Below are positions 42,864-44,238 of a stretch of DNA of 64,000 nucleotides, one piece after another. Position numbers and translations under genes: made by a program. The stretch is from contig NZ_CP039291.1 of NCBI RefSeq assembly GCF_004798685.1, positions 806,001-870,000 of the forward strand, in the 5' to 3' direction. This DNA comes from Cellulomonas shaoxiangyii. GTDB lineage: Bacteria > Actinomycetota > Actinomycetes > Actinomycetales > Cellulomonadaceae. The notes beneath the pieces were generated by a model that was not told where the DNA came from, ran no database searches, and saw only the letters and a list, made by a program, of their open reading frames with translations. The first letter of the stretch is position 1; every line of letters starts with the position of its first letter.

Positions 42864-42919
42864 CGAACCCGGAGTTCCTCAGCACTCAGGGCTCGCGGTG
42901 CCCACCAAGTCCGGGTTCG
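42864..42919. repeat. 56-bp hairpin element, copy 1
   Basis: Arms of 22 nt (42864-42885 and 42898-42919) around a 12-nt loop. Outer part CGAACCCGGA pairs well with TCCGGGTTCG; the inner part near AGCAC/GTGC has several mismatches. The left arm is 21/22 identical to the reverse complement of the right arm of copy 3 (44217-44238). Confidence 0.88.
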
Positions 42920-43030
42920 GCGGACCGGTTCGGCGGTGGGCGGTGGACCGGGTCGGCGGGTGGGCGGCGGATGATCACGTCGGCGGTGGCAGACCACGCG
43001 GCGGTCCTCCCATCGCACCGAGGGGCCCGG

Positions 43031-43086
43031 CGAACCCCGAGTTGGTCAGCGCCTCGGCCGTTCGGTGCCCACCACGTCCGGGGTCG
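43031..43086. repeat. 56-bp hairpin element, copy 2
   Basis: Same geometry as copies 1 and 3: arms 43031-43052 and 43065-43086, loop 12 nt. Starts CGAACCCCGAGTTGGTCAGC and ends CGTCCGGGGTCG, with several mismatches between arms. It lies in the 5' region of the DUF559-like gene, upstream of the start chosen here. Confidence 0.85.
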
Positions 43087-43216
43087 CGACGTCGCATGCC
43101 GGCCGACGGATGACTCCGGAGCGTCGAGCCGACCCAAGCCCGGAGGACCCGTGGCGGCCTCCACCGGTGTGGCGCCGGCGGGACGCGGCCCGGGGTACGC
43201 GCGGTGTCCTGGAGCG

Positions 43217-44167
43217 GTGCCTGGTCGCCGCCCTCTCCCGCCCGTGCTCGTCGCCACGGCGCTCCGGCAGGAGGGACTGGTCTCGGCGGCGCAGTGCGAG
43301 GCGGCCGGCGTGGGCGCGGAACGTCGCCGGGCGCTGGCCCGCAGCGGCCGGGCCACGCCGGTACAGCGCGCGGTTCTCGACCTCGCGCCGTCGATCGTCT
43401 CCGTCGCGGCCTCGCGTGCCGACCCCGCCGCCCGGCGCCGACGTGCCGCATGGCTCGGCCTGCTCGCGGTCGGCCCCCGTGCTGTGGCCGTCGGCCCGTG
43501 CGCCCTCGCGCTGCTGGGCGTGGAGGGGCTGCCGGGAGACATCCGCCCGGAGGTGGCCCTCCCGGGCGCGAGCCACCGGCGGCCACGGGGCGGGGTGGTG
43601 GTGCGCTCGTTCGACCACGGCATGCCCGTGGTCCGGGTGGGGTCTGCCCGCGTCGCCGCGGCCCCGTGGGCACTGGCGCAGGCCGTCTGCGAGCTCGACC
43701 GGGCGCACGCCGTCGCGGTCCTCGACTCGGCGCTGCAGCGCGGCCTGCTGCCCGGAGGGCTCGATCCGGTCGACGCACTGGTGCGCGGACGGCGCGGCGC
43801 TGCGGCGGCACGGCCGTGGCTGCGGCTCGCCGACGGGCGTGCGCAGTCGCCCCTCGAGACGTGGGCGCGGCTGCAGTGCGCGGACGCCGGCATCCCGCCG
43901 CACGAGCTGCAGGTCGCGGTGCGCGACCTGCGCGGACGCATCGTCGCCCGCGGTGACCTGGGCTGGTGGCGGTGCGACGGGCGGCTGCTGGTTGTCGAGA
44001 TCGACGGCATCGGGCCGCACACCGACCCGACGGCGCTCTTCGCGGACCGGGTACGGCAGAACGCGGTCGTGGCGACCGGCACGGCCGACGTCCTGCGCTT
44101 CACCGCCAGGGACGTGGCACGGGGCGGTGTCATCCCGGCGGCGGTCCGCGACTACCTGACCCTCTGA
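43217..44167 (+). CDS. DUF559 nuclease-like protein with AbiEi-like N-terminus
   Basis: 316 residues. The N-terminal ~60 (ATALRQEGLVSAAQCEAAGVGAERRRALARSG) resemble the winged helix of AbiEi-type antitoxins. The C-terminal ~110 match DUF559, a Vsr/restriction-like PD-(D/E)xK fold: SPLETWARLQCADAGIPPHELQ, GRIVARGDLGWW, LLVVEIDGIGPH, FADRVRQNAVVATG, VLRFTARDV. The likely catalytic residues are Glu of SPLE, Asp of GDLGW and E-x-D. Cleavage activity is not proven for this family. The start is uncertain: GTG 43217 and GTG 43244 fit; the frame is open to 42971 through hairpin copy 2. Hairpin elements lie on both sides and it has no operon partner. Confidence 0.75.
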   Translation: MPGRRPLPPVLVATALRQEGLVSAAQCEAAGVGAERRRALARSGRATPVQRAVLDLAPSIVSVAASRADPAARRRRAAWLGLLAVGPRAVAVGPCALALLGVEGLPGDIRPEVALPGASHRRPRGGVVVRSFDHGMPVVRVGSARVAAAPWALAQAVCELDRAHAVAVLDSALQRGLLPGGLDPVDALVRGRRGAAAARPWLRLADGRAQSPLETWARLQCADAGIPPHELQVAVRDLRGRIVARGDLGWWRCDGRLLVVEIDGIGPHTDPTALFADRVRQNAVVATGTADVLRFTARDVARGGVIPAAVRDYLTL

Positions 44168-44182
44168 CGCCCGATCGGGCCG

Positions 44183-44238
44183 CCACCCCGGACTTCCTCA
44201 GCACGACTGCCGCCCGGTGCTGAGGAAGTCCGGGTTCG
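44183..44238. repeat. 56-bp hairpin element, copy 3 (near-perfect)
   Basis: Arms 44183-44204 and 44217-44238 around a 12-nt loop; the inner 18 bp (CCCGGACTTCCTCAGCAC and complement) pair perfectly. It begins 15 bp after the DUF559-like stop codon and could also terminate transcription. Confidence 0.92.

Follow-up and report, generated by a model that had tools for sequence, protein, structure and literature searches.

A putative nuclease gene of Cellulomonas shaoxiangyii lies among three palindromes of one geometry, and the locus raises the question of whether the gene and the palindromes belong together, and by what relationship. The window, i.e., the whole stretch of DNA that was analysed (64,000 nucleotides), sits in a 3.91-Mb single-contig genome (G000), in which the dnaA domain begins at base 707. 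The gene belongs to a little-studied family that joins an AbiEi-type part to a probable nuclease, often beside palindromes that resemble target sites of its own. The features of the locus, in window coordinates, were as follows:

42864..42919, no strand: palindrome copy 1, upstream of the gene, with arms at 42864-42885 and 42898-42919 around a 12-bp centre
43031..43086, no strand: palindrome copy 2, 15 of 22 positions paired, 158 bp before the inferred gene start
43244..44167, + strand: gene for a predicted AbiEi-Vsr type nuclease of 307 aa, its start placed by homology
43244..43834, + strand: predicted AbiEi-fold module that probably binds DNA (residues 1-197)
43835..44164, + strand: predicted Vsr-like nuclease domain, residues 198-307
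44183..44238, no strand: palindrome copy 3, 20 of 22 positions paired, starting 16 bp after the stop codon

The window locus and its protein

All three palindromes were 56 bp in length (22 + 12 + 22), intergenic and strongly foldable, just where the initial annotation had placed three hairpin elements of this geometry. Re-reading the sequence confirmed complementarity at 21 of 22 positions between the outermost arms of the locus, the left one of copy 1 and the right one of copy 3. The outer end CGAACCC, described as shared by the elements, failed for copy 3, whose left outer end is CCACCCC. The arms of copy 1 paired at 17 of 22 positions, and this copy scored 69 bits against a covariance model in whose building it had itself been used. 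No Rfam match was found anywhere in the window.

The gene lies between mts and proC, identified from Pfam matches as a DUF7059/methyltransferase-type gene and a gene of the P5C reductase family, and neither of these two adjoining genes matched DUF1814. An alternative, longer ORF from 42971 would cross palindrome copy 2. The earlier description of the gene as DUF559/AbiEi-like was borne out by its relatives, while the window protein alone had no match at the Pfam cut-off. Within the A4 family alignment (43 of 50 genus homologs, leaving out L034, L215, L223, L224, L227, L230, and L234), members matched AbiEi_4 (27 of 43, best 8.8e-9), MTES_1575 REase (24 of 43, best 3e-5) and DUF559 (3 of 43, best 0.0055) at E ≤ 0.05. 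The homologs now carry the names hypothetical, DUF559, endonuclease domain, and AbiEi antitoxin domain proteins.

The gene product was modelled as an AbiEi-fold DNA-binding module (residues 1–197) followed by a Vsr-like nuclease (residues 198–307), the probable DNA-cutting part. In the model, the C-terminal domain has both the Vsr-like fold and the catalytic residues, a conserved E, D, H, D set named EDxHD. A Y1 HUH tyrosine transposase is not encoded, as both protein halves were assigned to these other folds. The predicted N-terminal fold is that of AbiEi of type IV AbiE systems and of Rv2827c (PDB 6y8q, 1zel), and the predicted C-terminal fold and its conserved residues are shared with Vsr-like nucleases and the homing endonuclease I-Bth0305I (PDB 1cw0, 3r3p) and with the MTES_1575 REase, described in PMC3710099 as HEPN-fusion proteins. 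All 100 orthologous pairs compared showed lower conservation of the nuclease than of the best neighbour on each flank, with a median identity of 61% vs. 89% and 86% for the neighbours (the pairs are not independent, and gene calls came from our own codon-usage script).

Palindromes beside homologs and across chromosomes

Matches to the protein were found in 60 of 81 genus genomes, and 50 of the 54 strong matches were examined (three of G094, one of G021 and weaker matches, with E above 1e-28, were left out). Around these 50 loci, palindromes with at least 16 of 22 pairs peaked at spans of 55–56 bp, which occurred upstream at 31 loci, downstream at 30 and on both sides at 21; other spans (44, 57, 61, and 62 bp) had scattered counts of 1–3. 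Control stretches about 1 kb away yielded 0 and 1 of 50, and shuffles 0.1. At least one palindrome of 55–57 bp adjoined 40 of the 50 homologs, the other 10 having none at the thresholds used. Upstream palindromes ended 74–207 bp before the match start in 32 loci, a position similar to that of copy 2. When gaps between genes were compared, using gene calls from the same script, 61 of 98 gaps adjoining the gene held a palindrome vs. 2 of 55 other gaps; for genomes with no known dispersed copies the figures were 47 of 76 and 0 of 11, the latter a small control.

Beyond the genus, A4-like proteins (E ≤ 1e-20) occurred in 102 of 394 genomes and 48 of 138 genera of the class, own included. The best-scoring 48 loci outside Cellulomonas were searched with a looser test, based on hairpin strength rather than length, and 30 of them had a palindrome (16 upstream, 24 downstream, 10 both), with spans of 45–73 bp, many near 55–66; far stretches gave 0 and 0, and shuffles 0.2 and 0.2. 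Some of these positives may be ordinary terminator-like hairpins, and 18 of the 48 loci had no palindrome at the thresholds used. The initial annotation had named an absence of any link to DUF559 genes as evidence against its proposal; the link instead recurs at rates far exceeding those of the controls, both in the genus and, under the looser test, in the class as well. At locus L282 (G343), the homolog had very strong palindromes on both sides, with hairpin scores of 32 and 33; their spans of 68 and 72 bp exceed those of Cellulomonas.

A gene unrelated to the palindromes was suggested by the absence of any homolog of the window gene from a first set of G033 and G026 palindrome loci, and by a repeat search that saw no such palindrome at two own-genome paralogs. 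The sequence-independent palindrome searches around homologs overturned this reading. One of these paralogs (3349262, L112) has a palindrome of another sequence on each side, both with 17 of 22 pairs, and the other (579117, L034) has weak palindromes only (15 of 22). In Cellulomonas uda, two weak palindromes precede the gene (14 of 22 each) and six follow it (15–18 of 22), in pairs 72 bp apart. The second homolog of G081 (L196:4968-5887) looks frame-broken, with two overlapping partial matches, and retains palindromes up- and downstream.

Copies of the same palindrome were also dispersed elsewhere in the chromosomes. With a BLAST search by copy 3 as the starting point, a covariance model (R1) was built that matches 18 places in the own chromosome at E < 0.01, 16 of which were used in building it; this number of matches places the window palindromes beyond chance. 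A search of 58 genomes, own included, identified clear further copies in G033 and in G026 (C. gelida NBRC 3748), and matches in 14 other genomes were set aside. A broader model (R2) matched in 20 of the 81 genus genomes, with G033, G026, G099 (C. uda NBRC 3747), G025, and G000 the richest; the G099 count is a lower bound, at least the matches listed, and divergent families may be missed by this model. Arrays were frequent in G033, G026, and G099, where copies recurred about every 72 bp and neighbouring palindromes were separated by some 16 bp.

The 45 dispersed element groups, placed with our own simple gene caller, were located between convergent (16), tandem (18), and divergent (8) genes, 3 having no assigned orientation and one group overlapping a low-scoring ORF. 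In the own genome, dispersed palindromes lay at 49–850 kb and 3214–3684 kb of C1. All 15 own-genome loci fell in the origin half, defined as the part reaching a quarter of the genome to each side of dnaA, as did 30 of 36 G033 loci among the matches listed (binomial p 3e-5 in each of these two single-contig genomes). G033 holds dozens of palindromes and only a distant homolog (38% over 139 aa). A small protein is present there in two copies, 92% alike over 75 aa, each adjoining palindromes (L078:2499-2726 and L079:2395-2931).

Geometry, cognate matching and descent

When the centre was left free from 4 to 30 bp in a half-site profile, it was exactly 12 bp in 131 of 134 copies (60/60 in G033, 34/36 in G026, 20/20 in G099, 17/18 in G000), a constancy that is partly a selection effect, because loci had been gathered by BLAST (G000), by a 12-bp-centre model (G033, part of G026 and G099) or by a fixed-length pattern. 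The span profile around the 50 homologs is free of that selection. Between copies of one genome, arms were 78–85% identical and centres 36–44%, the latter slightly above the 29–37% expected from composition. Alike centres (≥75%) were rare (82/1770, 15/561, 7/190, and 3/136 copy pairs).

The arms of a copy paired no better with each other than arms dealt among copies in G033 (0.777 vs. 0.781), G026 (0.750 vs. 0.755), and G099 (0.786 vs. 0.808), in a test whose second step was not selected on pairing. A small excess was found in G000 (0.805 vs. 0.780, p 0.036), where a second test gave 84.7% pairing vs. 81.2% in shuffles (1 of 500; for the covariation score, 0 of 500). Copies beside the gene were often near-perfect palindromes, with a pairing of 0.803 vs. 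0.488 when shuffled between loci (47 loci), a strength that is partly due to selection because pairing was itself a criterion of their choice, along with CG ends, at least one of them CGA/TCG. These properties agree better with two protein half-sites at constant spacing on dsDNA than with a selected RNA or single-strand hairpin; a hairpin role at the often near-perfect gene-side copies is possible. The dispersed dyads of G033 and G099 were slightly oriented, with arm positions 21–22 and parts of the centre differing between sides.

Arm sequence was common to the up- and downstream copies of one locus and different between loci. The half-site profile of dispersed copies in G000, with the window copies left out, scored 23.1 at its own gene flanks vs. 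6.1 at the next locus; the corresponding values were 23.3 vs. 17.2 for G026 and 25.0 vs. 16.7 for G099. The G033 family profile was best at the gene flanks of its relative G099 (25.4). Dispersed copies were thus cognate with the flanks of their own gene in three genomes and with those of a sister in the fourth, and these are not four independent cases, as the G033, G099, and G026 families are alike; the window locus is only one of those in the cognate tests. Across 40 loci, protein similarity correlated with arm similarity, more for the N-terminal part (Mantel rho 0.39 for columns 1–100 and 0.47 for 101–200) than for the C-terminal half (0.25 for 201–373, a stretch that combines the last portion of the AbiEi part with the nuclease; p 0.001 for each), values that are not independent proof because both similarities follow ancestry. 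Together, the cognate match of dispersed copies and the recurring gene-palindrome link strongly suggest, at the level of sequence, that the palindromes are recognised by the nuclease-type protein, as had been proposed.

The notion of a mobile element with terminal inverted repeats fared less well. Each palindrome is a unit with its own centre, which argues against a single transposon ending in the left arm of copy 1 and the right arm of copy 3, and no homolog was found in a plasmid collection (E 1e-10) or a phage collection (E 1e-6). The 50 homologs, grouped with gene calls from the codon-usage script, formed 13 neighbourhoods when both sides were compared and 8 when one side sufficed, with 17 and 24 species, respectively, in the largest; therefore the gene looks mainly vertical, with palindromes changing in place. 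The close relative G081 has the gene at mts-proC with palindromes of its own sequence. The empty sites sought from the outset were found: mts and proC stood together without the nuclease gene in 10 of 30 mts loci examined, and in G033 the site of the C. uda gene is an 862-bp stretch that lacks both the gene and palindromes and has only 38 bp, at the left edge, in common with C. uda. Judged from these comparisons, gains or losses of the whole gene-palindrome unit exist. A different inverted-repeat family, GCGAGAGTGCAATCCAGTC and its complement, is present in several copies in the mts-proC gap at L122, L125, and L131 (G101, G102, G019). These loci have no nuclease gene, and the repeats are perhaps the site set of another nuclease.

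A REP-like reading and its alternatives

We consider it probable that the gene and its palindromes form a nuclease-palindrome system that resembles REP/RAYT and is built on unrelated protein domains. The resemblance to RAYT/REP, already remarked on in the initial annotation, gained support from the recurring gene-palindrome link and from cognate dispersed copies. In the account of RAYT, REP, and BIME given in PMC2817692, as here, a palindrome-flanked gene evolves faster than its neighbours, protein and palindromes diverge together, and intergenic copies are dispersed, with regularly spaced arrays; the window gene and 21 of 50 genus homologs are flanked on both sides. The systems differ in their protein, a Y1 transposase there and a predicted AbiEi fold with a Vsr-like nuclease here, and in their unit, 20–40 bp there and a 56-bp dyad with a 12-bp centre here. 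Unlike in REPs, there was no sign of selection for hairpin pairing among the dispersed copies of three genomes.

AbiEi, as characterised in PMC7319586, binds a pair of 23-bp inverted repeats separated by 3 bp, and Rv2827c binds two pairs of 23-bp repeats, the members of a pair being 13 bp apart; in the binding experiments described there, neither bound the other's sites. Paired inverted repeats of 22–23 bp upstream are thus common to both systems and the present one, whose 12-bp gap is near the 13 bp of Rv2827c, and the upstream dyads of 55–56 bp at 31 of 50 homologs may correspond to the promoter repeats of AbiE. Here, in contrast, the protein has a predicted fused nuclease domain, palindromes are also downstream and dispersed, and no DUF1814 nucleotidyltransferase toxin gene lies on either side at the window locus. 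Since 22-bp arms and a 12-bp gap fit the binding mode of AbiEi and Rv2827c, the palindromes are taken as putative sites of the AbiEi part. This part would bind each 22-bp arm, with two molecules per 56-bp dyad, and the Vsr-type part could cut DNA; the upstream palindrome would, by analogy with AbiEi systems, probably be an autoregulatory operator. Gene-side palindromes, dispersed copies, and 72-bp arrays would be one cognate site set evolving with the protein. Once DNA was cut at a bound site or close to it, repair that used a second copy as template would spread and homogenise the palindromes, as proposed for RAYT transposases and REPs (PMC2817692); we infer such nuclease-driven spread from this parallel, from the arrays, and from the way in which copies change in concert. 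Counting against this model are the G033 palindromes without a close homolog, the rarity of alike centres (a mark of recent copying), the homologs without palindromes within and outside the genus, and their mostly vertical descent.

Plain autoregulation, the least improbable of the alternatives, nevertheless seems unlikely. The protein would be an AbiEi-like repressor, the palindromes operators only and the dispersed copies its regulon, with the nuclease domain acting elsewhere. AbiEi and Rv2827c do autoregulate via 23-bp inverted repeats in promoters, according to PMC7319586, and the distance of the upstream palindromes from the match start would suit operators, but downstream palindromes are as frequent (30 vs. 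31 of 50) and 16 of 45 dispersed groups are flanked by convergent genes, an arrangement in which a promoter would be unexpected. A defence or addiction device, in which an AbiEi-type nuclease held on genomic palindromes is released or retargeted during phage infection, appears improbable: it draws on AbiEi homology (PADLOC AbiEi models included), a weak LmuA match (E 0.0015), and the fast evolution of the nuclease, and the neighbours of the window gene, a methyltransferase-type gene and proC without a DUF1814 match, speak against it.

A shade less probable still are host sites for chromosome organisation near the replication origin, with the nuclease gene incidental or adopted. The crowding of loci in the origin half agrees with such a role; however, the sequences turn over between species, R1/R2-type copies were found in only 20 of 81 genus genomes by models that may miss divergent families, and origin-near regions may simply preserve old copies. 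That transcription terminators or other RNA hairpins gathered near the gene by chance is hardly credible, despite the intergenic position, the foldability, the pairing above shuffles in G000 and the near-perfect gene-side copies, given that the centre is constant yet own arms pair no better in G033, G026, and G099, that 8 of 45 dispersed groups lie between divergent genes, and that the window has no Rfam match.

Returning to the nuclease-palindrome reading, a bolder form of it can be offered only tentatively: the actinobacterial AbiEi-Vsr nucleases of the whole class might be a second, independently evolved REP-like system, in which they cut their own 56-bp palindromes, repair copies these into new intergenic sites, copies are kept in step, and protein and sites race between species. 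Vsr-like nucleases act in mismatch repair and I-Bth0305I in intron homing, and we know of no Vsr-like, I-Bth0305I or MTES_1575 REase protein tied to cognate palindromes. Among chromosomal protein families, RAYT/REP is to our knowledge the main known example of one whose cognate palindromes are dispersed in the genome. Similar genomic behaviour in an unrelated nuclease would mean that such a lifestyle has more than one origin. The reading would also give a role to the proteins that databases call hypothetical, DUF559, endonuclease domain or AbiEi antitoxin domain, and account for one class of the intergenic repeats of Actinomycetes, and its dozens of natural protein-site pairs would serve the study of how DNA specificity changes.
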